Shown here piece after piece: positions 2,115-64,000 of a DNA stretch of 64,000 bases. The notes below the pieces were generated by a model. It saw nothing but the letters and a program-made list of their open reading frames with translations, made no database searches and was not told the origin of the DNA. Each line of letters begins with the position of its first letter. Positions within the stretch are counted from its first letter, which is position 1. The translations under genes and the position numbers were made by a program. Origin of the DNA: Terrabacter tumescens (lineage in GTDB: Bacteria; Actinomycetota; Actinomycetes; Actinomycetales; Dermatophilaceae); NCBI RefSeq assembly GCF_014646815.1, contig NZ_BMNZ01000003.1, forward strand, positions 186,001 through 250,000, read 5' to 3'.

Positions 2115-2159
2115 GTATGCCGTGTGCACACGTCCCCGGGACCGGTGCACACGGCATAC
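2115..2159 (-). terminator. Hairpin built from inverted GTATGCCG/CGGCATAC copies
   Basis: Perfect 15-bp arms (2115-2129 and 2145-2159) around a 15-base loop. It lies downstream of the lipoprotein gene (stop at 2238) and upstream of mtrA, both on the minus strand, so it probably terminates the lipoprotein transcript. There is no clear U-tract. The outer part of each arm is the octamer discussed under findings. Confidence 0.6.
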
Positions 2160-2237
2160 GTGCTCGGCCACCAACGCCACCTTGAAGGGTGCGAGGGCGG
2201 CGTCCGAGAACCGGGGGCGGGACCGGTCAGCGGGGGG

Positions 2238-2786
2238 TCACCCCTGCGTGACGTACCACTTGCCGCCGATCTTGACGGCCTTGAAGCTCGCGACCACGTC
2301 GGCGGCCAGGGCCGGCTCGGTCGTGACGCTCTCGAAGGTGGCGGTGTTACCGCTCACGGTGGCGCCGCTGATCTTGAGGCCCTTGAACGCCGCGCCGAGC
2401 TCCTTGATCTGGTCGAGCATCGGCGTGATCGTCTTGCCGCAGGCGGCGGCGGCGTTCGGGATGCTCGAGATCGCCTTGCCGCTCGTGGCCATGAGCGAGC
2501 ACACGGTGTTGCCGTCCCCGGCGACCATGGCGCCCAGCCACGAGGTCATGGCGGCCTCGGGGGTCGACTGGTCGACGGGTCCGGCCGTGGCCCCGGTGGC
2601 CCCGTCGGTGGCGTCGGTGCCCGTGTCGTCGGTCGTCGCGGACGACATCGTGTCGGTCGGGGTGGTCGCACTCGAGCTCGAGCCGGCCGGGGTGCTCGCG
2701 GCGGCCGACTGGTCGACGGACTTCGAGCAGGCTGCGAGCGAGACGGACAGCGCCAGTGCGAGTGCACCGGTCAGGAGCTTCTTCAT
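2238..2786 (-). CDS. Small secreted lipoprotein, function unknown
   Basis: 182 residues. The N-terminus is a lipoprotein signal peptide: MKK, a hydrophobic stretch, then the lipobox LAAC with the acylated Cys at about residue 21. A low-complexity Ser/Thr/Ala/Asp linker (about 23-70) would span the cell wall. The C-terminal part (about 75-182) has two Cys residues (in TVCSLM and AAACGKT) and ends with KIGGKWYVTQG, a pattern seen in DUF4878/NTF2-like lipoproteins that bind small ligands. It is upstream of mtrA but separated from it by a hairpin, so it is probably a separate transcript. It is not LpqB. The family is a guess; the lipoprotein call is solid. Confidence 0.85.
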   Translation of the reverse strand: MKKLLTGALALALSVSLAACSKSVDQSAAASTPAGSSSSATTPTDTMSSATTDDTGTDATDGATGATAGPVDQSTPEAAMTSWLGAMVAGDGNTVCSLMATSGKAISSIPNAAAACGKTITPMLDQIKELGAAFKGLKISGATVSGNTATFESVTTEPALAADVVASFKAVKIGGKWYVTQG

Positions 2787-2968
2787 GGAGGGTCCCTGCC
2801 AGACGGGGTGGTCGGTGAGCCCTTCGATCCTCCCACGGCAGGCGTCGCGGTTCAGGTCGAGCGACGGACCCGAGCGCGTCGGCCCGGCCGTGGCGGGGCG
2901 GGCGTGGCGGGGCGCGCCAATCGGCCCAAAAGCCCCCGGCTCCCCCACGCAACGGGGATGATCGCCCG

Positions 2969-4435
2969 GTGACGAGCGACACGCGCAGCGCCGCACCGGG
3001 GTCGACCTCTCGGTCGGCCTCGACCGCCGCGGCACCGGCGACCGGGCGGGCCTCGGGGCTGCCGCTGCTGCTCCGGCAGGCCCTGCCCGGGCTCGTCGTC
3101 CTCCTCGCCGTCCTGCGCACGGTCCAGCCGGTGCGCGACCCGGACACCTTCTGGCACCTCGCGGCCGGCGACCACCTGCGCGAGACGTGGTCGTTCGCGG
3201 GCGCCGACCCGTTCAGCACGATGTCGACGCAGCCGTGGCGCCTACACGAGTGGCTGCCGGAGCTGCTCATGAGCGTGACCCAGCAGGCCTTCGGGCTGGC
3301 CGGCGTCTCGTGGCTGCTGCCTCTCGGCGTCGCGGGGATCGCGCTCTGCCTGTGGGTGGTCCTGCGCCGCGAGGCCCCCCTGCTCGTGACGACGGTCGTG
3401 CTCGTCGTCGCCCTCGTCGCGATGAGCGGCAGCCTCTCGCTGCGGCCGCACCTCGTCTCGTTCGCCGGGGCCGTCGTGACGACCGGTGCCTGGCTGTCCA
3501 CGCGCCGTGACGGGAGGGTCCGCTGGTGGCTCGTCCCGCTGACCTGGGTCTGGGCGTGCAGCCACGGCATGTGGTTCGTCGGCGTCGTCATCGGGCTCGT
3601 GGCCGTGGTCGGGCTGCGCCTCGACGGCGTCTGCCGTGGGCGCGCCGCGCTGCGCCTCGCCCTCGTGCCGCTCGCATCGCTCGTCGCCGCTGCGCTGACC
3701 CCGGTCGGCCCCGAGCTGCTGACGGCGCCCTTCGCCGTGCGGGACTACGCCCAGTTCGTCACCGAGTGGCGCTCTCCGTCGCTGACCGACGTCCCGTTCG
3801 TCGCGTTCCTCGCCTGCGCCGCCGTGACCCTGCTCATCTGGTCACGCGAGGGCCGGCGCACGCCGTGGACGGAGATCCTCCTCGTCGGGCTCGCGATCGG
3901 CTTCGCCCTGCTCTACGTGCGCACCATCGCCGTCGGTGCCGCGATCCTCGCCCCGGTGGCGGCCCTGACCATCGCCCGCGTCGCCCGGCTCCCCCGCGAA
4001 CCCGTCGCCCGCCGCGAGGTCGTGCTGACCCTCGGGCTCGCCGCCGCGGCTCTCGCCGTCGCCGGCCTGCTCGCACCCGCCCGCGGCGCCCGGCCCGACT
4101 ACGGCCCCAACGACCTCGACCGCCAGATCGCCGCGCTGCCGGCGGGCACCGTGCTGTGCAACGACTACGACAGCGGTGGCTGGCTCATCTGGAAGCACCC
4201 GAACGTCCGCCCCGCCATCGACGGCCGCACGGAGGTCTACGCCGTGCCCTACGTCGAGGCGTACATGCGCTTCCAGGCGGCGGCCCCCGGGTGGGAGGCC
4301 GTCCCCCAGCGGACCGGCTGCCGCTGGGCCCTGCTCCCCGCGAGCATGTCCGTGTCGGACTCCCTCGTCCGGCAGGCCCGCTGGACCGTGTCCGCGCGTG
4401 GCTCCGACTACGTCCTGCTCCGCGCCCCGCGCTGA
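2969..4435 (+). CDS. Polytopic membrane protein, GT-C glycosyltransferase-like
   Basis: 488 residues with about nine or ten hydrophobic segments between residues 30 and 370, followed by a soluble C-terminal domain of about 110 residues. The first extracellular loop carries DPDTFWHLAAGDHL, an acidic motif like the first-loop motif of GT-C enzymes that use polyprenyl-phosphate sugars. The C-terminal domain contains CNDYDSGGWLIW and DGRTEVY, typical of this actinobacterial family of putative mannosyltransferases. GTG at 2969 is supported by the hexamer GATGAT ending exactly 6 bases upstream, a leaderless arrangement. It is divergent from the lipoprotein gene and convergent with ahcY. Sugar donor and acceptor are unknown. 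Confidence 0.8.
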   Translation: MTSDTRSAAPGSTSRSASTAAAPATGRASGLPLLLRQALPGLVVLLAVLRTVQPVRDPDTFWHLAAGDHLRETWSFAGADPFSTMSTQPWRLHEWLPELLMSVTQQAFGLAGVSWLLPLGVAGIALCLWVVLRREAPLLVTTVVLVVALVAMSGSLSLRPHLVSFAGAVVTTGAWLSTRRDGRVRWWLVPLTWVWACSHGMWFVGVVIGLVAVVGLRLDGVCRGRAALRLALVPLASLVAAALTPVGPELLTAPFAVRDYAQFVTEWRSPSLTDVPFVAFLACAAVTLLIWSREGRRTPWTEILLVGLAIGFALLYVRTIAVGAAILAPVAALTIARVARLPREPVARREVVLTLGLAAAALAVAGLLAPARGARPDYGPNDLDRQIAALPAGTVLCNDYDSGGWLIWKHPNVRPAIDGRTEVYAVPYVEAYMRFQAAAPGWEAVPQRTGCRWALLPASMSVSDSLVRQARWTVSARGSDYVLLRAPR

Positions 4436-4478: not shown

Positions 4479-4514
4479 CGTATGCCGTCCCCCTCGCGAG
4501 GGGGACGGCATACG
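4479..4514. terminator. Perfect 36-bp palindrome between convergent genes
   Basis: 18-bp perfect arms meeting at CTCG|CGAG, with the octamer GTATGCCG/CGGCATAC at the outer ends. It lies between the ends of the membrane protein gene (plus) and ahcY (minus), so it probably serves as a bidirectional terminator. Confidence 0.75.
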
Positions 4515-6267: not shown

Positions 6268-6291
6268 GACCGTCCTGACGGTCCCGGACCG

Positions 6292-6293: not shown

Positions 6294-7233
<940 letters not shown>

Positions 7234-7275: not shown

Positions 7276-8667
7276 TCAGGCGGGTGCGTCGAGCTTGAGC
7301 CCGAGCAGGGCGTTCTCGACGACCTCGGCGAGCGCCGGGTGGATCCAGTACTGCCCGCGCGCGAGGTCGTGGACCGTCGTGCCGAACGCCATCCCCTGGA
7401 TCAGCGGCTGGATGAGCGAGGTCGCCTGGGGTCCCATGAGGTGGGCGCCGAGCAGGAGGCCCGTCGCCGGGTCCGCGACGAGCTTGCAGACGCTCGTCGT
7501 GTTCTCCATCGCCCAGCCGTATGCCGTGTCGCCGAACGCCTGGACGTAGCTCACGTGGGCGCGTCCCTGCTCGACGCACTCCTGCTCGGTGAGCCCGACC
7601 GTCGCGATCTGCGGGTGGCTGAAGACGCCGGAGGGCACGTGCTCGAGGGGCAGCCGGCGCAGGTCGTCCGGGTGCACGAGGTTGTGCGCGATGGTGCGCG
7701 CCTCGGCGTTGGCGACGTGCTTGAGCTGGTAGGGGGCGCTGACGTCACCGAGGGCCCAGACCCCGGGCGCGCTGGTGCGACCGTGCTCGTCGACCTCGAT
7801 GCGACCGTCGTCGAGCAAGCGCAGGCCGCCGACGTCGGCGCCGAGGTGGGCCGTGTTGGGCTCTCGGCCGGTCGCCACGAGCAGCAGGTCGGCGTCGACG
7901 ACGGCCGTGCTGTCGAGGTGCAGCCGCACGCCCTCGCCCCCGGGGCCCGTCTCGACACGGACGACGTTGGCGCCGGTGCGCACGTCCCACTGCTCCCGGG
8001 CCAGGTCGGTGAAGCGCTGCGCGATGTCGGTGTCGAGGTGGCGCAGCAGCATCGAGGACCGGGCCACGACGGTCACGTGCACGCCGAACGAGGCGAAGAC
8101 GTGAGCCATCTCGGCGGCGATGAACCCACCGCCGATGATCGCGAGCCGCTCGGGCAGGGCGTCGATCCGCATCACCGTGTCGGAGGTGTGGAAGGGCACG
8201 CCGGACTCGGTGACGACGTCGGGCACGACGGGGTGGGCCCCCGCAGCGACGACCACCTGGTCGGCGGTCAGGGTCTCGGTGCCGCCGTCGTGGAGGTCGA
8301 CCGTGAGGGTGCGTTCGCCGGTGAAACGGGCGTGACCGAGGAACGCCGTCGTGTTGGGCCCGTCGACGCGGTAGCGCCGGCCGCCGTCCGAGATGGGGTC
8401 GATGCGCCCGAAGACGCGGTCGCGCACGTCGCTCCAGCGCACGCCGTCGAGCGTGGCGTCGACGCCGTAGCGCCCGGCCTCGCGCACCTCGCGGGCCCGG
8501 TCGGCGGCGTAGACGAACATCTTCGTCGGGATGCAGCCGACGTTGAGGCACGTGCCGCCGAACGTCCCGCCCTCGATGATCGCAACGCGCTTGTCGTCGA
8601 AGTCGGGCGTCACGAGCGAGTTGCCCGAGCCACTGCCGATGATGGCCAGGTCGAAGTGCTGGGTCAC
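7276..8667 (-). CDS. mtr: Mycothione reductase
   Basis: Flavoprotein disulfide reductase that reduces mycothiol disulfide with NADPH, keeping the actinobacterial thiol buffer reduced. 463 residues. N-terminal FAD-binding IIGSGSGNSL, the redox-active pair in GGTCLNVGCIPTKM, a second nucleotide-binding IIGGGFIAAEMAH (about 175-187), the FAD-contact WALGDV, and the C-terminal dimerisation domain with the catalytic HPALAEVVENALLG. The IPTKM block (rather than IPSK) is characteristic of mycothione reductases. GTG at 8667 has TAGGCT 6 bases upstream, suggesting a leaderless mRNA. It works with the mycoredoxin at 59.8 kb and the SigR regulon. Confidence 0.94.
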   Translation of the reverse strand: MTQHFDLAIIGSGSGNSLVTPDFDDKRVAIIEGGTFGGTCLNVGCIPTKMFVYAADRAREVREAGRYGVDATLDGVRWSDVRDRVFGRIDPISDGGRRYRVDGPNTTAFLGHARFTGERTLTVDLHDGGTETLTADQVVVAAGAHPVVPDVVTESGVPFHTSDTVMRIDALPERLAIIGGGFIAAEMAHVFASFGVHVTVVARSSMLLRHLDTDIAQRFTDLAREQWDVRTGANVVRVETGPGGEGVRLHLDSTAVVDADLLLVATGREPNTAHLGADVGGLRLLDDGRIEVDEHGRTSAPGVWALGDVSAPYQLKHVANAEARTIAHNLVHPDDLRRLPLEHVPSGVFSHPQIATVGLTEQECVEQGRAHVSYVQAFGDTAYGWAMENTTSVCKLVADPATGLLLGAHLMGPQATSLIQPLIQGMAFGTTVHDLARGQYWIHPALAEVVENALLGLKLDAPA

Positions 8668-8784
8668 CGTCGCAGCCTACGTGGAGCAACCCGGCCGACC
8701 CGGGACGGGCCGCTCCTGACGTGAGGCCACTGACGGCATACGCCATCGGTCCGCCCACGGGACTGCCGCGGGACCACCCGGGGA

Positions 8785-11649: not shown

Positions 11650-12042
11650 TCAGGAGTCCTTGAGGATGCGCAGGTGTCCGCGCCGGCCGGACTCGACGGC
11701 GCCCGAGTCGGCCTCGGCGTTGGCCTGCCCGCGCGAGGTCGTGCGCGGCTCGGCGGGTCGGCTCGTGCGCGGACGGCCGGCCTCACGGACGGCGTCAGCG
11801 AGGGCCAGCAGGTCGTCGGCGGCCAGCGCGGGCTCGGGGAACTCGCCGCCCACGCGCACGACCTCCCAGCCACGGGGGGCCGTCATGCGCTCGGCGTGCT
11901 CGAGGCACAGGTCGTAGGTGTGCGGCTCGGCGTAGGTCGCGAGCGGACCGACGACGACGGCACGGTCGGCATACGCGTAGGTCAGCGTCGCCACAGCAGG
12001 ACGGGCACATCCCGTCTTCGAGCAACCACGTGTCAGACCCAC
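11650..12042 (-). CDS. DUF3499 family protein
   Basis: About 130 residues. The N-terminal half has a Cys/His pattern (TRGCSKTGCARPAVATLTYAYAD and YDLCLEHAERM) that looks like a zinc site; the C-terminal third is polar and low complexity. The family is confined to actinobacteria and always lies near manB and the zincin-like gene; function unknown. GTG at 12042 is preceded by TAGAGT with an 8-base spacer. An in-frame start at 12108 would add residues unlike the family. It runs the same way as manB but probably has its own promoter, and is divergent from the next gene. Confidence 0.85.
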   Translation of the reverse strand: MGLTRGCSKTGCARPAVATLTYAYADRAVVVGPLATYAEPHTYDLCLEHAERMTAPRGWEVVRVGGEFPEPALAADDLLALADAVREAGRPRTSRPAEPRTTSRGQANAEADSGAVESGRRGHLRILKDS

Positions 12043-12169
12043 GATCCGGGACTCTAGCCCGCCCTCCCGGGCAGGACGAATCACCACGCCGTCGCGGCGC
12101 GAGATCACTGCGGTCGTATGCCGTCCGGCGCGTCGCCGTGAGCGGTGGCCGTCGATCTAGAGTGGGGTC

Positions 12170-15309: not shown

Positions 15310-18300
15310 GAGCGCCTCCTCGAGCGACGGTTGCCGAAGGGCACGGCCATGAAGACGACGAAGGCGAGGAGCACGGCCTGGCCGAGGCGCCACCACGGCT
15401 GGGCGGCGGCGAGGTCGACCTCGAGCGTGCCCGCGGTGGGTGGCACGGCATACGTCGGCTGCGCCGCACCCGCGACGGGCTGCAGCTGCGCGCCGTCGAA
15501 GGTGACGACCGCCTGGCGCGACCACTCGGTGGGCTCGGCGAGCACGACGAATCGTGCGCCGGTGCCGGCCGGCAGGGTCGTGTCGACCGCTGCGTGCGGG
15601 CCGACCGTGGGCACGACCTGCAGCACCGCACCGTCCGCGTCGACGAGCCGTGCGCGGGACGGTGCCGTGCCGGCCTCGGCGCCGGCGCCGGCGGCCGGGA
15701 GCGGCTGCACCTTCCAGAGGATGCCGCGCTCGCTCGAACCGAGGCGGCTCAGGCCCTGCGAGGAGTCCAGTCGCCGGGCGAGGCCGGAGTCGGCCGTCGC
15801 CCGCACCTGGACGAAGCCGATGCCGAGACGGGCAAGCGCCTTGGAGTCGAGCGAGTCGGCGCCGCGGCCGCCGACGATGTTGGCGACGGCGTCGACGAGG
15901 GCGGCGTCGTCGGCGTCGGGAGCGCGGTCGAGGTCGCGCAGCAGCTCACCCGGCTCCTGGCCGGCGAGGACGAAGTCCACGACGTCGTCGGACGGGCGCA
16001 GCAGCAGCAGCCGGTTGCCGAGGGGGCCGCCGCCCTGCTCGGTCGCGATGGCGGGCAGCGTGGCCTGGCCGACGGACAGCGTGCGGCCGATGCCCTGCAC
16101 GCCCCAGACGGTGGCGGCGGCGAGGACGGGCCCGACCGCGAGGGCCGCGGCGCAGACTGCGGCGACGAAGCCCCAGCGTCGGCCCGGTCGACCGAGCGAG
16201 GCGAGCACCGGGCGACTGCCGGCCAGCACCCCGACGAGCAGGCCCGCCCACCAGAGCTGGACCCCGAGCCCCGCCCAGAGGTGGGCCGGGGCCGACCGGC
16301 CCACGCCGGTCTCGGCCGAGCCGAGGACGACGTGCTCCGAGCCGAGCGCGACGGCGAGCCCGAGCACGGCCAGCACGGCGCCGACGACGAGGCCGACGGA
16401 CTCAGCACGGGTGCGGCCGCGCGTGGCGAGCCCGACGACGCCGAGCACGACGAGCGGGGCCGCGAGCCAGGCGACCCACGTCGTCGCGCTCGTCCCGCCG
16501 AGGACGTGCGTGAGCACGCCCCACGTGGTGCGGTCGGACGACGTCGCGACGAGGCCGGGCCCCGACAGGAGCAGGCGCGGGTCCTCCACGAAACGAGCCG
16601 TCCACGGGCCGAGGAGTGCGGCCGGGACGACGAGGAGCACGAGGGCGCGGGCCCGCCGCAGCCCCGGCCCCAGGACGAGGAGCAGGAGAGCCGCGAGCGC
16701 GGCGAGGGCGAGCAGCGGCGGCGCGAACGCACCGAGGACCGCGGTCGCGAGCGCGGTGGCGAAGGTGGCGGTGAAGGTGCCGTCGCGCCGGGCGGCCAGG
16801 CAGAAGCCGGCGAGCACGAACGGCAGCAGCACGTGCACGACCGCCACCCCGACCCGGCCCTGGGCGAGCCCGGTCGCAGCGACGCCGGCCGTGCCCCACG
16901 CCAGGGCGGCCAGGGCGCGGGCGACGCGCGAGGAGGTGACGACGCGCGCTGCGAGGTAGGTGGACCACGCGGCGAGGACCGGGGTCAGGAACAGCAGCCA
17001 GGCGATGGTGACGCCCGCGCTCGAACGGCTCTCGGCGACACCGGGCACGCGCTCGGCCAGCCAGGTCAGCGCGGAGAGCACGGCGAGGTGCGGTCCGGAC
17101 TCGGCCCCGGTGCCCAGTCCGGCGCCGTGCCAGGCGTCGCGGAAGGCGTGCCAGAGGCCCGAGGAGTCGGTGGTCACGGGACGCAGCTCGCCGCCGGCGA
17201 CGCCGGCGTTCGTCGGGGACAGCGCGCCCGCGCGGATCGTGTCGCGCCAGGCCGCGACCGTGGCGACGAGCACGGCGACGACGGCGAGGAAGCCGGGGTG
17301 GGTCACGACCCTGCGGGGCAGCGACGCGGGGAGGTGGTCGAGCGACTCGGAGTCGTCGGCCACGGGGCCGGTCTCGGTCGTCGCGGCCGCCTCGCGCCGG
17401 GCGCGGGCGCGCTCGGGCGTGATGGCGTCCTGGATGTGGTCGACGGTGGTGCGGGCGGCGACGGCCGGGGCCACGAAGAGGGTGCCGAGGTGGTCGCGGC
17501 GCAGGCGCTTGGTCCGGCGCCCGCGCCAGCGGGCGCCGAGCGTCGCGAACGGGTGCATCAGCGCGGTGACGTCCGTCAGCTCACGCCAGGCCTGCCTCGG
17601 GCGCTTCGCCACGAGCAGGGTGAGCGAGGCGAGCACCGCGGAGAGCGCCATCCAGATCGCGAGGAACGGAGCGGCGAAGGGCGAGCAGCGGGCGAGCGTG
17701 ACCTGGCGCGCGGCGCGTCGGCCGCGGCGTTCGAGCTCACGCGGGGTGGGACCGCCGGGGCGGGCGCCGTCGAGGCTCGCCGAGGCGTCGCGGACGACCG
17801 CTGCCGGCACGACGATGACGCGGTGGCCGGCGAGCTGGGCCCGCCAGCCGAAGTCGAGGTCGGCTCCGTGGTCGAGGAACGCGGGGTCGAAACCGCCGAG
17901 GTCGTCGTGGACGGAGCGCCGCACGAGCATGCCGCTCGTGCTCACCGCGAGGACGTCGGCGCGGTGGTCGCGTACTGGCCCTGGTCGGCCTCGCCGCGCA
18001 CCGGTGAGCCGAGGCGGCGTCCCGTGCGGGTGATCTGGATGCCCATCTCGACGAGGCGTCGCGGGTCGTCCCAGCTGACGAGCTTGGGCCCGGCGACCCC
18101 GACGGACTTCGAGCGCAGGCCGGCCTGGAGCAGCTGGGCCAGGGCGTTGGCCCGTGGAACGGAGTCGTCGTGCAGCACCCAGACCCAGCTCGACGCGGGG
18201 TCGGCCGGGACAGGGAGTGCCTCGATGGCACGCTCGACAGCACGCCCGATGGGGACGCGGGCGTCGAGGCGTACGACCTCGACGGACCCGATCGCCCGGC

Positions 18301-19126: not shown

Positions 19127-20122
19127 ATGCGCATCACCGCTCTGGCCGGAGGAGTCGGCGGCGCCCGGTTCCTCCGGGGCCTGCTCCACCACGCCCGACA
19201 CACCTACCCCCTGACACCGGATTCCGATCCACTCGAGCTGACCGTCATCGGCAACACCGGTGACGACATCACGCTCTTCGGGCTGCGGGTGTGTCCCGAC
19301 ATCGACACGCTGCTCTACACGCTGGGCGGCGGCATCCACGAGGGGCAGGGCTGGGGACGCGCGGACGAGACGCACAGCGTCGCCGGCGAGCTCGCCGCCC
19401 TCGGCGCCGAGCCGCAGTGGTTCACCCTCGGCGACAAGGACTTCGGCACCCACGTCTACCGCTCGCAGCTGCTCGGGCAAGGTATGCCGCTCAGCGCGGT
19501 CGTCAACCGCCTCTCCGCCCGCTGGGGGCTGGGCGAGCTCGGGGTCCGGCTGCTGCCCATGACCGACACCCCGGTCGAGACCCACGTCGTCGTCGATGAG
19601 GGCGGGCAGCAGCGCGCCATCCACTTCCAGGAGTGGTGGGTGCGCCACCGTGCCGAGCTGCCCGCCGAGCGGTTCGTCGTCGCCGGGCTCGACAAGGCGA
19701 CCCCGGCGCCGGGCGTGCTCGACGCGATCCGCGAGGCCGACGTCGTCCTCCTCCCCCCGAGCAACCCGGTCGTCTCGATCGGCATCATCCTCGGGGTGCC
19801 GGGCGTGCGGGACGCGCTGCGCGGCACCCGGGCCCCCGTCGTCGGGGTCTCCCCGCTCGTCGGCGGCCGGCCGGTGCGCGGGCACGCCGACGTCTGCCTG
19901 CGCACGATCGGTGTGGAGGAGTCCAGCGCCGGCGTGGCGGGCCTCTACTCCGACTTCCTCGACGGCTGGCTCGTCGACGAGGAGGACCCGATGCCGGACC
20001 GCCGCGGCCTCGAGGTCCAGCGACGCCCGCTGCTCATGAGCTCGGTGGACGCGGCGGCCGAGATGGCGGGCGCGGCCCTCGACCTCGGTCTGCGGCTGCG
20101 CGCGGAGCGAGCCCCGGCGTGA
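19127..20122 (+). CDS. fbiA: Phospho-lactate/enolpyruvate transferase of F420 synthesis
   Basis: CofD/FbiA family enzyme that joins the deazaflavin Fo to a three-carbon phosphoester unit, giving F420-0 or, in actinobacteria, dehydro-F420-0. 331 residues. N-terminal nucleotide-binding block ALAGGVGGARFLRGL, then IGNTGDDITLFGLRVCPDIDTLLYTL and FTLGDKDFGTHVYRS, all strongly family-specific. ATG at 19127 is preceded by GAGGAT with a 6-base spacer. It overlaps fbiB by four bases (GTGA). The fbiA-fbiB pair beside whiB matches mycobacterial gene order. Confidence 0.95.
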   Translation: MRITALAGGVGGARFLRGLLHHARHTYPLTPDSDPLELTVIGNTGDDITLFGLRVCPDIDTLLYTLGGGIHEGQGWGRADETHSVAGELAALGAEPQWFTLGDKDFGTHVYRSQLLGQGMPLSAVVNRLSARWGLGELGVRLLPMTDTPVETHVVVDEGGQQRAIHFQEWWVRHRAELPAERFVVAGLDKATPAPGVLDAIREADVVLLPPSNPVVSIGIILGVPGVRDALRGTRAPVVGVSPLVGGRPVRGHADVCLRTIGVEESSAGVAGLYSDFLDGWLVDEEDPMPDRRGLEVQRRPLLMSSVDAAAEMAGAALDLGLRLRAERAPA

Positions 20123-24365: not shown

Positions 24366-25538
<1,173 letters not shown>

Positions 25539-41583: not shown

Positions 41584-42540
41584 TCACGGAGCCATCGCGG
41601 CATACCCCGTGAAGTCGTGGACGGCGATGCCGACGTAGGTCGCGTAGGTCCTGGCGCCCGAATCCACCTGTGCGAGCTGGTCGTTCATCCGCGTCAGGGT
41701 CTGCCCGTAGAAGGTCTGCTTGACCTCGGTCGGGTCCGGCCCGAGGTAGTTCGTCTCCTGGCCGATGCGGACCGGCTTGCCCAGTGAGGCCGCCGAGGCG
41801 AGCTCCGCCGCGGCGACCGCCAGCGTGCCGTCGGCGCCCGCAGCGGTGTTGCGGTAGGCCATGATCGTCACGGCCGATACGCGGCGCATCGTCTCCCTGT
41901 CGAGCGTCGACTTCTTGCCCGCCTTGACCTGGTCGAACCAGAACGGGATGTCGGCCTCGACCGGCCGGGTGCCGCTCGCCGTGACGAGCCGGTCGAGCAG
42001 GGTGAGGTACTTCGAGACGGTCGTCGCCTGTCGCGTCGTCCACGCCGTCGTCGTCCACGGCTCGACGTCGACGTGCAGGCCGGTGAACAGGCCTGTCGCG
42101 ATGGTTGGCCGGACCCAGTGGTCGACGGCCCATGTCGGGTTGTCGACCCACCCCGGGTCACCGCCGAGCGCGTCGACCCGCAGCCCCGCGCCGCGGGCCT
42201 GCGTCACGAGGTCGCGCACCCTGGGCAGGCTCGGGCTCGTCGTCAGGTCCGGCGGCACGGCGACGAAGAGCGTGTCGACGCCGCGCGACTGGGCCAGCTG
42301 GACGACCGACCCGGCGTCGGACCACGACCACACCCACATCGCGCGGCCCGGCGTCGTGGCGGCGGACGCGGCCTGCGACGAGAGGACGAGCGACCCCAGC
42401 ACGATCACGATCATCGCAGCCGCGGCCGCCCAACGGGCGCGCACCCGGGCGGACCGCCCCGGCCCGTGCCCGCGCGGACGGCCGGCTCGTGGGCCGGGTC
42501 GTGTACCGCGTGACGGGCCGGTTCGTGGGCTCGACGTCAT
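41584..42540 (-). CDS. Secreted barrel-type protein of unknown function, possibly a glycoside hydrolase
   Basis: 318 residues. A 35-residue basic start and a hydrophobic segment (AAAAMIVIVLGSLVLSSQAASAA) form a long signal peptide with cleavage likely after ASA. The mature part looks like a TIM barrel: MWVWSWSDAGSVVQLAQSRGVDTLFVAV, LRVDALGGDPGW, GLHVDVEPW (acidic pair at a strand end), ADIPFWFD, VTIMAYRNTA and YVGIAVHDF. Acidic residues at strand ends are as in GH18/GH25-type hydrolases, but I cannot assign a family. ATG at 42540. Confidence 0.78.
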   Translation of the reverse strand: MTSSPRTGPSRGTRPGPRAGRPRGHGPGRSARVRARWAAAAAMIVIVLGSLVLSSQAASAATTPGRAMWVWSWSDAGSVVQLAQSRGVDTLFVAVPPDLTTSPSLPRVRDLVTQARGAGLRVDALGGDPGWVDNPTWAVDHWVRPTIATGLFTGLHVDVEPWTTTAWTTRQATTVSKYLTLLDRLVTASGTRPVEADIPFWFDQVKAGKKSTLDRETMRRVSAVTIMAYRNTAAGADGTLAVAAAELASAASLGKPVRIGQETNYLGPDPTEVKQTFYGQTLTRMNDQLAQVDSGARTYATYVGIAVHDFTGYAAMAP

Positions 42541-46525: not shown

Positions 46526-46711
46526 GTGGAGTGCCTTGGGTGCTGGGGCGGGCAGGTGGTCGGGCGGACCCGTGGGCGGCCTCCTCCGGCCGCCTGCGGC
46601 AACCATAACCCGCGCTCCGCACGCTCCTGCGGGGTGACGAGGCAACGTGACCGGCACGAGACCACACGGGTCCGTGGTGGCCTGCCGGTCGGCATACGGC
46701 AGCATGGTCAC

Positions 46712-48881: not shown

Positions 48882-49049
48882 GGTATGCCGCGTCGCCGAC
48901 GCCCGCGTGCCGTCCCGTCGCGCTGCTGCCGCCCGACCGCAGACCGACGGGGGAGCAACCGGGAACCAACGGAGTCGATCCGTGGTTGTCTTGAATGTGC
49001 GGCCGGACGGTCGCAGCAGATCCGTGATTTCGAGTGGGGATGAGCAGGC

Positions 49050-51408: not shown

Positions 51409-51434
51409 GACGGCATACGACCGCGTATGCCGTC
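51409..51434. terminator. Hairpin built from inverted CGGCATACG/CGTATGCCG copies
   Basis: GACGGCATACG (51409-51419), four-base loop, CGTATGCCGTC (51424-51434). It lies between the convergent Nudix and YgjP-like genes. Third case of this octamer in an inverted pair at a gene end. Confidence 0.7.
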
Positions 51435-56716: not shown

Positions 56717-58867
56717 CTATTCGGCGGATTCCTTTGCGGCAGAACGGCTTTCGATGAGTTCTTCCGGGTCTGCGCCGCCGAGGATCGCCAGGATGTCGCT
56801 GCCGTACTGCTCGAGCTTGCGGGCCCCCACGCCGCTGATGACCGACAGAGCGCCCTCGTCGGAGGGCGAGCTCTCGGCGATCGCGGTCAGCGTCGCGTCG
56901 GTGAAGACGACGAAGGCCGGGACGCTCGCCTCGCGCGCGACGGCCAGCCGCCACGTGCGCAGCCGCTCGAAGGTCGCCTCGTCGTAGGTGGGACGACAGT
57001 CGTCGCAGCGGCCGGTCTTGCGCTGGGCCGCGGAGACCAGCTCGGCGCCGCAGCCGCGGCAGTGGGCGAGACGGGCCACCTTGGGAGCGGAGCGCTTGGA
57101 CCCGCCGGAGCGGGCCTCGCTGCGAGCGCCTTGCCCGAGGATGTCGGCCGCCGGCGCCAGGAAGCGCGAGACCCTCCGGGTGGCACGCGCCCCCGGGGTG
57201 CGGGCGCCGGACCACGACAGGAACAGCTGCTTGCGGGCGCGGGTCAGCCCGACGTAGAGCAGCCGCCGCTCCTCCTCGATGGCATCGGGACCCTCCGCCA
57301 TCGAGATCGGCATGAGGCCGTCGGATGCCCCGACGAGGAAGACGGTGTCCCACTCGAGGCCCTTGGCCGCGTGCAGGCTGGCCAGTGTCACTCCCTGCAC
57401 GGCAGGAGCGTGCTGCTCGGCGGCGCGCCGCTCGAGCTCGGCGACGAGCTCGGGCAACCGCGCCTCCGGGGCGGCGGACGCCATGTCGTCGGCGAGGGTG
57501 GCGAGGGCGGTCAGCGACTCCCACCGCTCCCTCGTCGCGCCCCCACCCGTCGGCGGCTCGTGCGACCAGCCGGCACCGGTGATGACGTCGCGGGTGATCT
57601 CACCCAAGGGCTTCTCACCGTCATCGCTGCGCGCTGCGCCGCGCAGGAGCAGGACGGCGTCACGGACCTCCTTGCGCGCGAAGAACCGGTCGCCGCCGCG
57701 CACGAGGTAGGGCACGCCAGCGTCGGTGAGGGCCGACTCGAAGGCCTCGGACTGGGCGTTGGTGCGGAAGAGGATGGCGATCTCGGCGGCCTGGTGGCCG
57801 CCGGCCACGAGGGCGCGGATGCGCTCGGCGACGGCCGCAGCCTCGGCCGGGTCGTCGGGGTAGCTCGTCAGCTCGGGAGCGGGGCCGGGCTCGGACTGCG
57901 CCAGCAGGCGCACGGCGCCGTCGCGCGCGGCCTGGGTGCCGGAGGCGACGATGGTGTTGGCGAGGCCGACGATCTGCGGCGTCGAGCGGTAGTTGCGCAC
58001 GAGTCGCACGACCTGCGCGCCGGGGAAGCGCTGGGGGAAGCCGACGAGGTGTCGGGGGCTGGCGCCGGTGAAGGAGTAGATCGTCTGGGCGGGGTCGCCG
58101 ACGACGCAGAGGTCCTTGCGCTCCCCCAGCCACTGGTCGAGCAGCCGCTGCTGGAGGTCGTTGACGTCCTGGTACTCGTCGACGACGAACTGGCGGTACT
58201 GCCCGCGCACGGTGCGGGCGATGTCCTCGCGCTCGTCGAGGATCCCGACCGTGAGGAGCAGGACGTCCTCGAAGTCGATGACCCCGCGACGCTGCTTGAC
58301 GTCCTCGTAGGCCTCGAAGAGCCGTGCCATCGCGGTGAGGTCGAGACCCGGGGGCTCACGACGCTGCTCACGGGCGCGGGCGGCATACGACTGCGGCGTC
58401 AGCAGGTTGACCTTGGCCCACTCGATCTCGGCGGCGAGGTCGCGCACCGTCGTGCGGTCGAACTGCATGCGCAGCCGGCTGGCGGCCTCCGCGACGGCCG
58501 GCGCCTTGTAGCTCATCACCTCGGGAGCGGCGCCCCCGATCGCCTGCGGCCAGAAGAAGTGCAGCTGGCGCAGGGCCGCTGCGTGGAAGGTGCGGGCCTG
58601 CACGCCCTGCACGCCGAGCCCGCGCAGGCGCGAGCGCATCTCCCCGGCCGCGCGGGCCGTGAACGTCAGCGCCAGCACGCGCTGCGGCTGCTGCGCACCC
58701 GAGTGGACGGCATACGCGATGCGGTGGGTGATGGCACGCGTCTTGCCGGTGCCGGCGCCCGCGAGGATGCACAGCGGCCCCGGCGGGGCCATCGCGACCT
58801 CGCGCTGCTCGGGGTCGAGCCCGTCGAGGATCTGGTCGGCGGAGGGTGCGGAGGGGACTGCGCTCAG
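56717..58867 (-). CDS. uvrD2: DNA helicase UvrD2, probably started at CTG
   Basis: SF1 helicase with a Cys-rich and HRDC tail. 716 residues from CTG 58867. Q-motif LDPEQREVAMAP, Walker A LAGAGTGKT, VVDEYQDVN, LVRNYRSTPQIV, VTLASLHAAKGLEWDTVFL and LLYVGLTRARKQLFLSW. After about 570, two CxxC pairs (CRGCG, CDDC) and an HRDC domain (TYDEATFERLRTWRLAVAREASVPAFVVF). The first ATG (58792) would cut off the Q-motif; the protein-like frame goes back to CTG 58867, which overlaps the ppk2 stop as CTGA and has AAGGG 9 bases upstream. Confidence 0.93.
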   Translation of the reverse strand: MSAVPSAPSADQILDGLDPEQREVAMAPPGPLCILAGAGTGKTRAITHRIAYAVHSGAQQPQRVLALTFTARAAGEMRSRLRGLGVQGVQARTFHAAALRQLHFFWPQAIGGAAPEVMSYKAPAVAEAASRLRMQFDRTTVRDLAAEIEWAKVNLLTPQSYAARAREQRREPPGLDLTAMARLFEAYEDVKQRRGVIDFEDVLLLTVGILDEREDIARTVRGQYRQFVVDEYQDVNDLQQRLLDQWLGERKDLCVVGDPAQTIYSFTGASPRHLVGFPQRFPGAQVVRLVRNYRSTPQIVGLANTIVASGTQAARDGAVRLLAQSEPGPAPELTSYPDDPAEAAAVAERIRALVAGGHQAAEIAILFRTNAQSEAFESALTDAGVPYLVRGGDRFFARKEVRDAVLLLRGAARSDDGEKPLGEITRDVITGAGWSHEPPTGGGATRERWESLTALATLADDMASAAPEARLPELVAELERRAAEQHAPAVQGVTLASLHAAKGLEWDTVFLVGASDGLMPISMAEGPDAIEEERRLLYVGLTRARKQLFLSWSGARTPGARATRRVSRFLAPAADILGQGARSEARSGGSKRSAPKVARLAHCRGCGAELVSAAQRKTGRCDDCRPTYDEATFERLRTWRLAVAREASVPAFVVFTDATLTAIAESSPSDEGALSVISGVGARKLEQYGSDILAILGGADPEELIESRSAAKESAE

Positions 58868-60084: not shown

Positions 60085-61071
60085 TCAGAGAGCGCGGGCC
60101 GTTCCGGGCCTCATGGAGTCGCCAGGCTCGATGACGGACTCGACCGTCTGGCCGAGCCAGTGCTCGATGATCCGCTTGGCTATCGAGATGCCGCTCGGCG
60201 TGCGGATCGCGCCGCTGCGGAGCAGGTCGCGGTACTCCTCACGGCTCACCCAACGCGCCTCGGCCATCTCGACGGGGTCGATTGTCAGCTCCGTCTGCCG
60301 GGTCGTCGCCTCGAAGCCGATCATGACGGACGAAGGGAACGGCCACGGCTGGTTGCCGAGGTAGCGCGCGCCGTCGACCGCGACCCCGACCTCCTCGGCG
60401 ACCTCGCGCGCGACCGCGGCCTCGAACGACTCCCCGGGCTCGACGAAGCCGGCGAGCACCGAGAAGCGCCCCTCGGGCCAGTGCGCGCCGCGACCGAGCA
60501 GGAGTCGGCCGTCCGGGTCGACGACCGACATGATGACGGCCGGGTCGGTCCGCGGGTAGTGCTCGCTGCCCTCGCGCTCGCAACGACGCACCCAGCCGGC
60601 CTGGGTGGGCTGGGTCGGGGCGCCGCAACGCGGGCAGAAGCGGTGGGTGCCGTGCCAGTTGGCGAGCGCCAGAGCCGTCGTGAAGACGCCCGCGTCGCGC
60701 GTCGCGAGGGCCTCGCCGGCCTGACGCAGGGTGAGCCAGCCGTCGTCGGCCGGGTCGGGGCCGTCCCCGCCGGGCTCCGGGTCGTCCCACTGCGTCACGA
60801 CGCCGACGTATGCCGTCCCCTCGCCGTCGCGTCCGAGGTGCAGCCCCAGCCGGGTGTGGTCCTCGGGCTCGGGCGCTCGCAGCACGAGATGGAGCACGTC
60901 GTCGTCGGCCGCCGCTACCCGCATCCGGTCACCGCGCACCTCGGCCACCCGGGTGCGCGGGTCGTCGAGCAGCTCGGTGAGGACCTCGGGGCGACGGCGC
61001 TCGAGCGCCACGCGGTCGAGCGAGCTGCGTGAGAGTGCGAGGTCGGGCAGGGTCGTGTCGGTCGGTGCCAC
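60085..61071 (-). CDS. nudC: NADH pyrophosphatase / RNA-decapping NudC
   Basis: Splits NAD(H) and removes NAD caps from RNA. 328 residues: N-terminal domain to about 140, a four-Cys zinc site (FCPRCGAPT, then a Cys in RRCEREGSEHYPRTDPAVIM), the Nudix box GFVEPGESFEAAVAREVAEEVGV and the NudC-specific SQPWPFP-type motif here GNQPWPFPSSVMIGF. One zinc ligand seems replaced by His or lost. GTG at 61071 has TAGGGT 6 bases upstream. Matches mycobacterial Rv3199c. Confidence 0.95.
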   Translation of the reverse strand: MAPTDTTLPDLALSRSSLDRVALERRRPEVLTELLDDPRTRVAEVRGDRMRVAAADDDVLHLVLRAPEPEDHTRLGLHLGRDGEGTAYVGVVTQWDDPEPGGDGPDPADDGWLTLRQAGEALATRDAGVFTTALALANWHGTHRFCPRCGAPTQPTQAGWVRRCEREGSEHYPRTDPAVIMSVVDPDGRLLLGRGAHWPEGRFSVLAGFVEPGESFEAAVAREVAEEVGVAVDGARYLGNQPWPFPSSVMIGFEATTRQTELTIDPVEMAEARWVSREEYRDLLRSGAIRTPSGISIAKRIIEHWLGQTVESVIEPGDSMRPGTARAL

Positions 61072-61189: not shown

Positions 61190-62734
61190 GTGACTCGAAG
61201 CCCTCTCTTCCTCGCCGCCCTGGCGAGCTCGGCCGTGCCGGGCCTCGACCCGGTGGCGGTGGAGGGCGTGTCCGGCGAGCCCGGCGACCTCTTCGAGATC
61301 GCCTACGTGCAGGACGGCCAGGACCGTCGGTGGGTCGTCAAGGCCCCGTGCACCCCGGCGGCCGGCGCCATGCTCGACGACATCTCCTCGCTCTCCGGTC
61401 TGCTCGCTCGCCGCCTCGACGTGGCGATGCCGATGGTGCGCGGCTTCGCACCCGTGCCGGAGGGTCGCGCAGCCGTCTACCTGCGGGTCCCCGGTCGTCC
61501 GCTCGACTTCGCCGGGCTCGAGCCCGGCGCCCTGAGCGCCGAGGTCGGCCGCACGCTCGCCCACATCCACAACGTCGAGCACCTGCTCTTCGAGGAGGCC
61601 GGGCGCCCGACCTACGACGCCGAGGCCCACCGCCGACGTCAGCTCTCCGAGCTCGACCGCGCAGCCGCCACCGGGCACGTGCCCACTGGTCTGCTGACGC
61701 GCTGGGAGCACGCGCTCGAGGACGTGTCGCTGTGGCGTTTCGCCCCGACCCCGGTGCACGGGACGTTCACCGGGCAGAACGTGCTGGCCTCCTTCGACGA
61801 CGATGACGACTCGTCGTCCGGACACGTCCGCGGCGTCCTGGCGTGGGAGGAGAGCCGGGTCGCCGACCCGGCCGACGACTTCGCCGAGCTCGCCAGCACC
61901 GCCCCGCCAGCGACCCTGGATGCGGTCCTCGAGGCGTATGCCGCATCGCGCATCGAGCGCCCCGACGGCCACCTCGTGCGCCGGGCCCGGCTCGCCGCCG
62001 AGATGGCGCCACTGCGCCGGCTGCTCCACGCGCTCGCCGCAGGACAGCTCGACGTCGTCGAGCGCACCGCCGACGAGCTGCGTTCGCTCGACGAGCAGGT
62101 GGAGGCCGACGACCGCCGGCACGCCGCCGAGGACGCCGAACGCACCGAGCGCACCCGCCGGGCCAGGGAGCGTGCGGTCGCGGCGCTCGACCCCGACGAC
62201 CCCGAGCAGCCCGAGCGCCCCGACCGACCCGAGCCCGAGTGGGACGCGACGCAGCCGCACGTGCCCTTTCCGATGCTCGGCGAGACCCAGGCCATCTCGA
62301 TGACGTCCGTCCTCGACGATGGCCAGACGTATGCCGCCCCCTCGGGCGAGCCGGCCGCCGCGCCGTCCAGCCCCGCCCACGTCGCACCATCGACCCCGGC
62401 ACAGGGCTTCGGAGTCGGCCAGGCGGATGACTGGGCCGGGACTGCAGACGACACGTCGCAAGGCACGGACCCGGTCGAGAACCCGGTCCAGCAGGCGTTC
62501 GAGAACCCGGTCCAGCAGCCGGTCCAGAACCCGGTCGAGAACCCGGTCCAGCAGCCGGTCGAGGAGTCACAGCCGGTGCCCGTCGTCGCGGTCGACTCCG
62601 ACGCGTCGCCGTTCGAGATCGACGAGGTCGAGGCGCTGCCCGAGCAGGCCGACGGGGTGCTCGACCTGCACGAGGGAGCCTCGGACTTCATCCCCGTCAC
62701 CGGCCACGGCCACCAGCACCACGAACGCGCCTGA
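61190..62734 (+). CDS. Phosphotransferase-like (APH fold) protein with a repeat-rich tail
   Basis: 514 residues. Residues 1-300 look like an aminoglycoside/macrolide phosphotransferase: RRWVVKAPCTPAAGAMLDD, RTLAHIHNVEH, then HGTFTGQNVLASF where enzymes have HGDxxxxN, and VLAWEESRVADPADDFAEL in the place of DWE...DPxxDLA. The catalytic Asp is Thr, so it may be inactive. A charged helix (330-355) and a 150-residue disordered tail with ENPVQQ repeats follow. GTG at 61190 has TACGGT exactly 6 bases upstream. It is between nudC and adnB. Confidence 0.8.
   Translation: MTRSPLFLAALASSAVPGLDPVAVEGVSGEPGDLFEIAYVQDGQDRRWVVKAPCTPAAGAMLDDISSLSGLLARRLDVAMPMVRGFAPVPEGRAAVYLRVPGRPLDFAGLEPGALSAEVGRTLAHIHNVEHLLFEEAGRPTYDAEAHRRRQLSELDRAAATGHVPTGLLTRWEHALEDVSLWRFAPTPVHGTFTGQNVLASFDDDDDSSSGHVRGVLAWEESRVADPADDFAELASTAPPATLDAVLEAYAASRIERPDGHLVRRARLAAEMAPLRRLLHALAAGQLDVVERTADELRSLDEQVEADDRRHAAEDAERTERTRRARERAVAALDPDDPEQPERPDRPEPEWDATQPHVPFPMLGETQAISMTSVLDDGQTYAAPSGEPAAAPSSPAHVAPSTPAQGFGVGQADDWAGTADDTSQGTDPVENPVQQAFENPVQQPVQNPVENPVQQPVEESQPVPVVAVDSDASPFEIDEVEALPEQADGVLDLHEGASDFIPVTGHGHQHHERA
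62469..62566 (+). repeat. Tandem repeat encoding ENPVQQ units
   Basis: Copies of GAGAACCCGGTCCAGCAG and shorter GTCGAGAACCCG/CAGCCGGTC variants, in frame in the tail of the phosphotransferase-like gene. Confidence 0.85.
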
Positions 62735-62753
62735 CCGACCCCGCGGCCCTCAA

Positions 62754-62908
62754 CCACTCGAGTGGCCCCGCCGCCCCGCCGGCCCCACCCTCCTTCACTC
62801 GAGTGGGCCTCGCGACCCCACCCGCCCCATGGCTCCCGGCCGAGCGGCCGGAGGGTTGTGACGACGGGGCCACTCGACTGGTGGGGTGTGACGGGGCCAC
62901 TCGACGGG
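62754..62908. repeat. Four copies of a CCACTCGA-based palindrome
   Basis: CCACTCGAGTGG (62754-62765), CACTCGAGTG (62796-62805), CCACTCGACTGG (62870-62881) and CCACTCGACGGG (62897-62908), in the 195-base gap between two convergent genes. The first two are perfect palindromes. No gene is seen in the gap. Confidence 0.75.
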
Positions 62909-62929
62909 GAGTGTCGGAGCCGGGCCGGG

Positions 62930-64000
62930 CTAGTCGGGCAGGGTGCGCAGCAGGTCGGCCAGGACGCGCTCGCCCGGCAGGTCGGGGCGCACCGTGACGC
63001 CCTCCCCCGCGTAGTAGAACGCCGCGTCGACGCGCGACGGGTCGACGCCGCGCAGGCGGGCGAACGCGACGGCATACGCCCCGAGCTGCAGGGCGCGGAC
63101 GGAGGCGTCGCGTCCTGTCGGCCGGGCACCGGTCTTCCAGTCGACGACCGTCCAGCCACCGTCGTCGCGGGGGAAGACGGCATCAACCCGGCCACGCACG
63201 GCGATACCGTCGATGATCGTCTCGATCGACAGCTCGATCTCCTCGGGGATGCGGTCGGCCCACTCGCTGGCGAGGAAGCGCTCCTTCATGGCGTCGAGGT
63301 CGCCGTCGTCAGCCGCCCCCTCGTCGGCGCTGCCGGGCAGGTCGAGCAGGTCGACGAAGGCGGCGCGTGAGTAGTGCTCCTCGATCCACGCGTGGAACGC
63401 GGTGCCCTGCCGGGCCGCAACGGCCGGCGGGCTCGGCATGGGGCGGCGCAGCGACATCGCGAAGGTTTCGGCGTCGCGGGCCAGCGACACGACGGCCGAC
63501 GCCGACAGGTGACGTGGGACGTCGACCACGGGCTCGCCTCGCGACCGGCGCGCGGCCTGCTCCGCGAGCAGGATGCGCAGGTCGTTGACCCGTGAATCAC
63601 CTTGCGGCACAGTCGGGCCCGCCTCAACCAGAGCCGCTATGCGGCGATGGGCGTCGAGCAGTCCGGCGCGACGTGCACCCATGGGGTCGTGGGGCCACAG
63701 CTGCGAGATCGGCACGGCGAGGTGCGGGTTGGTGGGTGCGCTGGCCTTGCCCTTGTCGTCGACGATGGGCTCGGGCGCGGCGACCCAGGTCGTGCGCACG
63801 ACGGCTGAGGGCAGCGTGTCCTCGACCTCCGTCATGAACCGCGACGGGACCGACATCGTCTTCTTCGCGGCACCCCAGAGATGCGTCGTCAGCAGCATCG
63901 AGGAACGCGCTCGGGTCAGGGCGACGTAGGCCAGCCGGCGCTCCTCGGCGACGGCGTGGTGCCCGCCATCGAGGACGAACGCGTCGATGGCCGCGCTGAG
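62930..64000 (-). CDS. adnB: AdnB-type helicase-nuclease (N-terminal part beyond the window)
   Basis: Subunit of the actinobacterial AdnAB end-resection motor-nuclease. Only the last 357 codons are here, with the open frame running off the right edge. First seen is helicase motif VI (EERRLAYVALTRARSSMLLTTHLWG), then a linker and a RecB-type nuclease domain: ARQGTAFHAWIEEHYSRAAF, GRVDAVFPRDDGGWTVVDWKTG (catalytic Asp and Lys) and QLGAYAVAFARLRGVD. The order nudC-(one gene)-adnB resembles mycobacterial Rv3199c-Rv3201c, where adnA lies upstream of adnB. It could be AdnA, but position favours AdnB. Confidence 0.85.
   Translation of the reverse strand, partial: LSAAIDAFVLDGGHHAVAEERRLAYVALTRARSSMLLTTHLWGAAKKTMSVPSRFMTEVEDTLPSAVVRTTWVAAPEPIVDDKGKASAPTNPHLAVPISQLWPHDPMGARRAGLLDAHRRIAALVEAGPTVPQGDSRVNDLRILLAEQAARRSRGEPVVDVPRHLSASAVVSLARDAETFAMSLRRPMPSPPAVAARQGTAFHAWIEEHYSRAAFVDLLDLPGSADEGAADDGDLDAMKERFLASEWADRIPEEIELSIETIIDGIAVRGRVDAVFPRDDGGWTVVDWKTGARPTGRDASVRALQLGAYAVAFARLRGVDPSRVDAAFYYAGEGVTVRPDLPGERVLADLLRTLPD

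Follow-up and report, generated by a model that had tools for sequence, protein, structure and literature searches.

Why should the short asymmetric word CGGCATAC recur 32 times in a 64,000-nucleotide stretch of the genome of Terrabacter tumescens (contig NZ_BMNZ01000003.1, positions 186,001 to 250,000; hereafter the window)? Its properties suggest that it is probably a DNA uptake sequence, i.e., a genome-wide self-tag for natural transformation via a Tad competence pilus. Uptake of DNA by means of such sequence tags is best documented in two Gram-negative families, Neisseriaceae and Pasteurellaceae. We know of no actinobacterial uptake sequence, and none appears among the matches listed in a search of open-licence papers. 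The octamer was noticed by eye, with three possible roles: an uptake sequence, a methylation target, or a recombination signal. The first of these fits best because of the word's lineage-specific dialects, its hairpin-forming pairs, its scattered copies without regional strand bias, its conservation between species, and its association with competence-type Tad loci.

Exact counting finds 18 copies of CGGCATAC on the plus strand of the window and 14 on the minus strand, where 100 dinucleotide shuffles give a mean of 0.71 (maximum, 3) and a third-order Markov model gives 1.6. The core GGCATAC is found 33 times (19 on the plus strand and 14 on the minus strand) and GCATAC 35 times in all, with the two copies outside the GGCATAC context located at 6913 and 39713. 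The original prediction had arrived at the same 33 heptamers, 32 octamers and two outliers, with positions correct to within two bases; its assumption of about 72% GC also holds (measured, 72.7%). The over-representation is real and genome-wide. The complete genome (G000, 4.71 Mb, in which the window is G000:C3:186001-250000) contains 2,358 copies, 1,200 forward and 1,158 reverse, versus 199 copies of the reversed word (88 and 111). A 482-kb sample of G000, comprising the window and 21 further stretches, has 233 copies versus 1.8 expected from a motif-masked third-order model, the comparison that had been set beforehand as capable of refuting the claim. The six top-ranked octamers of this sample all overlap CGGCATAC. 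Among its 24 single-base variants, 18 have no more than 9 copies each, and the six commoner ones reach 0.5 to 2.5 times expectation. The word is preferentially preceded by A or G and followed by G-N-C, giving the core GGCATAC in the preferred context R-CGGCATAC-G-N-C in Terrabacter. One published full sequence with the octamer holds it inside an Illumina-type adaptor; adaptor remains are rejected as the source of the genomic copies, which have varied flanks.

Placement relative to genes, as defined by a home-made gene caller, differs between genomes. In the G000 sample, 149 copies lie in genes (0.35 per kb), 80 between genes (1.52 per kb), and 4 on gene edges; the corresponding figures for the 343 copies in a second genome, G068, are 298 (0.88 per kb), 38 (0.62 per kb), and 7. 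In-gene copies are mostly read as TAT-GCC or GCA-TAC. GCA-TAC is one of the frames named in the original prediction; some in-gene copies of the window fall in another frame. Of the 146 TAT codons in the G000 sample, 95 belong to CGGCATAC, while TAC codons number 2,462. Twenty synonymous-codon shuffles retain a mean of 7.8 coding copies in G000 (maximum, 11) and 27 in G068, so that codon pairs, the other way in which the prediction could have failed, are rejected as the cause. Within genes, the G000 copies prefer the antisense orientation (103:46). Between genes, their density is 3.41 per kb in convergent, 1.32 in tandem, and 1.26 in divergent regions (p 0.0005), and 14 of the 15 neighbors within 100 bp of each other are inverted. 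In the window, 20 copies are found within predicted genes and 12 between them. Three of its four close inverted pairs form strong hairpins (z -5.1 to -9.7; z -1.7 for the fourth), two of which sit between convergent predicted genes: the one at 4480..4513 between 2969-4435 (+) and 4561-5997 (-), and the one at 51411..51432 between 50828-51382 (+) and 51456-52079 (-).

The copies show no regional strand bias, as had been noted by eye. In 20-kb bins they are closer to strand balance than expected by chance (chi2 8.6 on 23 degrees of freedom in G000 and 7.1 on 20 in G068), and this local balance rejects a polar segregation motif. Partition by the sign of GC skew gives 174:169 in G068, which is poor evidence, the skew being weak in the G068 regions. 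What the original prediction missed is a local effect. Adjacent copies more than 100 bp apart tend to alternate in orientation, with 137 alternating versus 77 in G000 (p 5e-5) and 176 versus 121 in G068 (p 0.0017). Relative to uniform random placement, pairs in the same orientation occur at 0.18, 0.36, and 0.29 at distances of 0 to 100, 100 to 500, and 500 to 1000 bp in G000 and at 0.58, 0.58, and 0.84 in G068, and this depletion recovers over 1 to 2 kb or more. Pairs in opposite orientations stay at 0.7 to 1.2, save for a 2.5-fold excess below 100 bp in G000. Same-orientation copies thus repel each other within about 1 kb, and opposite ones do not. Among the places listed for Arsenicicoccus, pairs 100 to 1000 bp apart are opposite in 16 cases and same in 3 (p 0.004). 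In 30 pooled loci of other genera with CGGCATAC, the ratio is 118 to 67 (p 0.0002), falling to 101:100 at 1 to 2 kb. Two control words show no repulsion (4:4 and 22:21). Same-strand spacing in G000 is more regular than chance (coefficient of variation, 0.65; null, 0.98), and the mean spacing of copies is 2.1 kb in G000 and 1.1 kb in G068. Gene direction is not the cause of the repulsion, because the in-gene orientation preference would act oppositely. Such repulsion is the trace that an orientation-specific function with a reach of about 1 kb should leave.

A check of related genera, suggested with the original prediction, shows the word to be widespread in the GTDB family. CGGCATAC was counted in 117 genomes, the window's own included and 46 of them from other families; at enrichment thresholds set after seeing the data, it is enriched in 30 of the 53 sampled genera of the family. 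The rich genomes are nine of Terrabacter itself and representatives of 29 of the 52 other family genera, and the 46 genomes from other families have at most 167 copies each. The word is abundant (841 to 3,277 copies) in 16 of 30 named genomes, namely two Terrabacter, Humibacillus xanthopallidus, Intrasporangium oryzae, Arsenicicoccus bolidensis, four Ornithinimicrobium, Knoellia remsis, Phycicoccus elongatus, and five metagenome-assembled genomes. The poor ones are Intrasporangium flavum (66 copies), Janibacter indicus (18), one uncultured Phycicoccus (35), Dermacoccus abyssi (46), and ten genomes from outside the group (8 to 219). The family set used below comprises 63 genomes, the window's own and 62 of other genera, eight further Terrabacter, all motif-rich, having been dropped. 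Forty of these are motif-bearing, 32 with CGGCATAC and 8 with CGGCATCC, CGGCGTAC, or CCGCATAC; the other 23 fall below every threshold.

Some sister lineages enrich one-base variants in place of CGGCATAC, referred to here as dialects. An unbiased ranking of octamers across 20 genomes, including 10 that are poor in CGGCATAC, puts CGGCATCC on top in G034 and G024, CGGCGTAC in G048 and G031, CCGCATAC in G028, and GGCATACC in G055, the last two dialects resting on 40 and 78 kb of sequence, respectively. It finds no such word in seven CGGCATAC-poor genomes or in the borderline genome G027. Genome-wide, CGGCATCC reaches 3,816 copies in G024 and 3,949 in G034 (controls, 392 and 289), and CGGCGTAC reaches 3,903 in G048, 2,618 in G056, and 2,216 in G031 (controls, 310, 161, and 143); both CGGCATAC and CGGCATCC are abundant in G052. 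Among the 248 genomes counted for CGGCATCC, it is present at 7 or more times the control level in 12 of 17 genomes of another family, f19, and is the top octamer of one of them (G106) in a further unbiased ranking; among the other families outside f19, one f4 genome (G164) passes, at 8 times the control and 534 copies. A quickly built tree of ComEC (64 rows, of which 60 belong to the family, with G010 and three genomes lacking a ComEC match left out) implies at least 9 changes of motif state and 15 of dialect, counted with "none," G052, and G055 as separate states and with many forks weakly supported. Three genomes counted as motif-free, G009, G061, and G027, have raised levels of CGGCATCC (4.3 times the control, in G009) or CGGCGTAC (4.6 to 5.6 times) and may contain decaying or young dialects. 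Two genomes of genus g3 differ in CGGCGTAC content, with 2.4 times the control level in G010 but 6.6 times in G062, which may reflect a recent gain or loss.

Individual copies are conserved between species, as judged from the small sample of aligned G000 motif sites in the 18-kb comEC region. ComEC of G000 shares 79% identity with its counterpart in Terrabacter sp. Root85. In three other Terrabacter the sites are intact in 6 of 6 cases (G005), 7 of 7 (Root85), and 6 of 7 (Ter38), and beyond the genus in 4 of 5 in Humibacillus and 1 of 2 in I. oryzae, with background 8-mers intact at fractions of 0.32, 0.37, 0.34, 0.22, and 0.21, respectively. In the motif-free I. flavum, none of 2 sites from G000, none of 6 from G005, and none of 5 from each of two further query species, which share sites, is intact. 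A weak signal comes from Tetrasphaera phage TJE1, whose 49 kb contain 2 copies versus 0.56 expected.

Among the competence genes suggested for inspection, comEA and comEC are present in G000, where ComEA adjoins ComEC. As for the type IV pilus, PilT scores over the cut-off within the family only in G033, with sub-threshold pieces in G013, and the best PilT match in G000 (E 4.3e-17) is located at a TadA-like ATPase, so that a type IVa pilus is rejected as the uptake machine. The T2SSE ATPases of 32 searched genomes include a class found at tad-1 type loci. The 15 such loci that were fetched contain tadA and two tadB/C-like genes, with pilin-like genes in 14 of them (one with a TadE and one with a Tad Pfam match; "flp" and "tadF" are named by position, without a Pfam match). 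In 12 of the 15, a gene for an FHA-FtsK/SpoIIIE protein lies upstream of tadA on the other strand. This arrangement matches the description of tad-1 of Micrococcus luteus (a divergent FtsK gene, then tadA, tadB, tadC, and a run of pilin genes reaching to a tadG-like gene), the likeness being judged by gene order against the published description. The available text of PMC8467076 places Mlut_07490, a reverse-strand gene of the FtsK family, next to the series from Mlut_07500 (TadA1) to Mlut_07560 (TadG-like) and reports that a point mutation in Mlut_07490 cuts transformation at least 1000-fold; a requirement for tad genes in M. luteus transformation is described in the available part of PMC4322843. 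The tad-1 type TadA, whole or in pieces, is found in 39 of 40 motif-bearing versus 13 of 23 motif-free genomes of the family set (Fisher 8e-5, ignoring kinship) and, with one genome per genus, in 36 of 37 versus 9 of 16 (5e-4, likewise ignoring kinship).

In G000 itself, tad-1 tadA (L207:6597-13325, corresponding to G000:C6:341597-348325) is interrupted in the Walker A region by about 5.4 kb of inserted DNA. This insert encodes a large serine recombinase (L207:7234-8625) together with an FkbM-type methyltransferase and a STAND-like ATPase and contains a single copy of CGGCATAC. The gene is split at the same place in G015 (C43:9233-21506) and G036 (C23:365831-401822) and at or near it in G111, from another family (C32 and C7), and the tadA match stops near position 304 in G001 (C13:116222), G006 (C8:359450), and G029 (C93:2662). 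Perhaps tad-1 tadA is a recurrent target of mobile elements; competence genes are known as such targets, according to the part of PMC4774983 that is available. As a separate observation, G034, of the CGGCATCC dialect, keeps tadABC, but at this locus (L211:1602-10673) a tblastn search of the 20-kb stretch turns up no flp-, tadE-, or tadF-like gene, just the end of the tadG-like gene about 5 kb away.

In the proposed mechanism, free double-stranded DNA with CGGCATAC would be bound by a sequence-reading component of the tad-1 type Tad/Flp competence pilus and passed to ComEA, and one strand would enter via ComEC and recombine. DNA from kin would thereby enter preferentially, copies would be gained and kept through biased import and the benefit of DNA exchange with kin, and the word would shift by one base when the reader changes, giving rise to dialects. 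Uptake from a copy would be polar, so that each strand would need its own array. Biased uptake and the pilus as its reader are what we infer. So is polarity, which we derive from the asymmetry of the word and from the mutual exclusion, over about 1 kb, of copies in the same but not in opposite orientation. By likeness to the neisserial minor pilin ComP, the TadE/F/G-like proteins are the first candidates for the receptor. The more specific proposal, a separately evolved uptake system of high-GC Gram-positive bacteria that is read by Tad, has dialects in at least two families, and is polar with two self-spacing strand arrays, stands at even chances.

Several observations weigh against an uptake function. 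ComEC is as common in motif-free lineages as in the others and therefore is no predictor of the motif; found in 111 of the 117 genomes, it is uninformative as a discriminator. The ComEC tree has about 5 changes of tad-1 and about 9 of the motif, with too few independent pairs for significance. G055 keeps the motif (1,624 copies, in a GGCATACC-leaning dialect) without a tad-1 TadA, and the motif-free G009, G016, G017, and G018 retain tadABC and four pilin-like genes. Loss of a minor pilin was considered as the cause of motif loss and rejected, as tblastn found genes that the gene caller had missed. The interruption of its tadA may mean that the G000 strain is at present not transformable. In the C dialect the repulsion is weak (94:71, p 0.09), the small sample of the G dialect lacks it (18:17), and the alternation of adjacent copies in Arsenicicoccus is modest (49 versus 30, p 0.04, for the 84 usable places listed in the first 217 kb). 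Close neighbors within 100 bp barely depart from Poisson expectation (15 versus 10.9 in G000 and 26 versus 28.3 in G068). G068 shows no excess of copies between genes or between convergent genes, its close pairs are inverted in 17 cases versus 9 in the same orientation (p 0.17), and its share of TAT codons within the word is weaker than in G000 (151 of 926).

The closest competitor is a Chi-like site for recombination or repair, read one-sidedly by a helicase-nuclease of the AdnAB/AddAB type, with a copy per 1 to 4 kb on each strand. Orientation-specific spacing would suit such a reader, as would the scatter of copies in genes and between them. This reading is nevertheless unlikely, since the 20-kb bins are over-balanced with no regional strand bias and it leaves the terminator-like inverted pairs, the repeated dialect changes, and the Tad association unexplained. 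RecBCD in particular is not the reader: RecC is not found in G000, nor in 31 of the 40 motif-bearing genomes (9 of 40 have it, versus 14 of 23 motif-free ones; Fisher 0.003, ignoring kinship), and a RecBCD-Chi system is rejected. The word might instead be the target of a DNA methyltransferase or another self-marking site, its over-representation being a by-product or a form of defense. Thousands of exact copies are compatible with this, and one-base changes between lineages would fit changes of specificity. However, a methylation site would account for neither the repulsion of same-strand copies nor the hairpin pairs and the convergent-gene excess, and a methylation target predicts none of the features that support uptake. 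Restriction targets are generally under-represented, and a 100-fold enrichment runs counter to that pattern. This explanation appears quite improbable.

A binding site for a chromosome-organizing or global regulatory protein has similarly little to recommend it. A copy about every 2 kb throughout the genome and regular same-strand spacing would be in keeping with such a role, but divergent promoters are not enriched compared to convergent regions in G000, the great majority of the G068 copies lie within genes, and the close relative I. flavum has only a background level of the word. Ordinary codon usage, a terminator element, or mutational bias can hardly be credited at all. Some copies do occur in terminator-like hairpins, but most lie within genes, where the codon shuffles recover a small part of them and where the word supplies most of the TAT codons of the G000 sample; the reversed word has no such excess, and the control words do not repel each other.

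If the uptake reading is true, it would provide a separate actinobacterial case, complete with dialects and lineages from which the word has disappeared, in which the old question of selfish drive or selection for exchange with kin could be addressed by comparison. It would also predict transformable actinobacteria in soil and wastewater and supply the word to be placed in donor DNA. Orientation-specific spacing would offer a handle on the direction in which the tagged molecule is pulled in.

Table 1. Copies of CGGCATAC and their hairpins in the window
Feature	Positions	Strand	Predicted fold
CGGCATAC copy, left arm of inverted pair, intergenic	2115..2122	-	
CGGCATAC copy, right arm of inverted pair, intergenic	2152..2159	+	
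Inverted motif pair, long hairpin between two genes	2115..2159		fold of 2110-2165: -38 kcal/mol, z -6.1
CGGCATAC copy, left arm of inverted pair, intergenic	4480..4487	-	
CGGCATAC copy, right arm of inverted pair, intergenic	4506..4513	+	
Perfect hairpin, motif at both stem ends, terminator-like	4480..4513		-39.1 kcal/mol, z -9.7
CGGCATAC copy in gene, GCA-TAC frame	7519..7526	-	
CGGCATAC copy, intergenic	8734..8741	+	
CGGCATAC copy in gene, TAT-GCC frame on coding strand	11967..11974	+	
CGGCATAC copy, intergenic	12116..12123	-	
CGGCATAC copy in gene, TAT-GCC frame	15446..15453	+	
CGGCATAC copy in gene, other frame	19482..19489	-	
CGGCATAC copy in gene, other frame	20151..20158	+	
CGGCATAC copy in gene, TAT-GCC frame	23947..23954	-	
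GGCATAC without leading C (one-off copy)	24486..24492	+	
CGGCATAC copy in gene, TAT-GCC frame	27488..27495	+	
CGGCATAC copy in gene, TAT-GCC frame	29397..29404	+	
CGGCATAC copy near predicted gene start, TAT-GCC frame; inverted pair with 31710	31681..31688	+	
CGGCATAC copy, intergenic; inverted pair with 31681	31710..31717	-	weak hairpin, z -1.7
CGGCATAC copy in gene, other frame	32098..32105	-	
CGGCATAC copy, intergenic, directly 3' of a stop codon	34849..34856	+	
CGGCATAC copy in gene, GCA-TAC frame	36609..36616	-	
CGGCATAC copy in gene, GCA-TAC frame	40568..40575	+	
CGGCATAC copy in gene, TAT-GCC frame	41598..41605	+	
CGGCATAC copy in gene, TAT-GCC frame	44908..44915	+	
CGGCATAC copy, intergenic	46690..46697	+	
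CGGCATAC copy, intergenic	48883..48890	-	
CGGCATAC copy, left arm of inverted pair	51411..51418	+	
CGGCATAC copy, right arm of inverted pair	51425..51432	-	
Hairpin of motif and complement, terminator-like	51411..51432		-23.3 kcal/mol, z -5.1
CGGCATAC copy in gene, TAT-GCC frame	58381..58388	+	
CGGCATAC copy in gene, TAT-GCC frame	58708..58715	+	
CGGCATAC copy in gene, GCA-TAC frame	60808..60815	-	
CGGCATAC copy in gene, TAT-GCC frame	61936..61943	-	
CGGCATAC copy in gene, TAT-GCC frame	62329..62336	-	
CGGCATAC copy in gene, TAT-GCC frame	63070..63077	+	

Two further features of the window were noted in passing. The word CAAGGGCAA/TTGCCCTTG is found in 7 copies versus 0.1 expected, perhaps reflecting runs of Lys-Gly-Lys codons, and the sole Rfam match at gathering scores is one tRNA gene at 43286-43359 on the minus strand.

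Among known systems, Chi, KOPS, and HIP1 resemble CGGCATAC in being abundant short words spread through a genome. Going by the general properties of these words, CGGCATAC differs from KOPS and Chi in having no polarity along the chromosome and from HIP1 in not being palindromic; RecC, of the Chi reader RecBCD, is not found in most of the hosts that carry the word. The uptake signal sequence (USS) of Pasteurellaceae, served by a type IV pilus system according to the title of PMC12616744, is likewise an over-represented short word with terminator pairs, no general orientation bias, and unequal use of the two orientations inside reading frames, although the word and the bacteria are unrelated. 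These orientation properties of the USS are described in the available text of PMC2346458.

The DNA uptake sequence (DUS) of Neisseriaceae is similar in more respects: it too is short and asymmetric, has thousands of copies with a mean spacing of 1 to 2 kb, forms inverted pairs in terminators, and varies by single bases among the dialects of a family. The available parts of the respective papers describe DUS dialects across Neisseriaceae (PMC3630211), high copy number and terminator pairs for both DUS and USS (PMC1852404), further features of this likeness (PMC6370729), and a neisserial spacing of 1.1 to 1.5 kb that matches gene conversion tracts (PMC2397512) and is near that in G068 and G000. 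Orientation-specific repulsion goes unmentioned for DUS or USS in the accessible text of PMC2397512 and PMC2346458. The word and the hosts are different, and so is the apparatus: a type IVa pilus there, with the minor pilin ComP as the DUS receptor, and a Tad/Flp locus here, with PilT below its cut-off in G000 and TadE/F/G-like proteins as receptor candidates. On the side of the machinery, the closest parallel is the tad-1/tad-2/comEA/EC system of M. luteus, which shares the Tad gene order, the FtsK-family neighbor seen in most of the loci fetched here, and the ComEA and ComEC found in G000; the term "uptake sequence" does not appear in the available text of its transformation papers (PMC4322843 and PMC8467076). 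What CGGCATAC has in common with DUS and USS is thus a high copy excess in both orientations, dialects, and a set of ComEA, ComEC, and Tad pilus genes, together with the hairpin pairs seen in G000.

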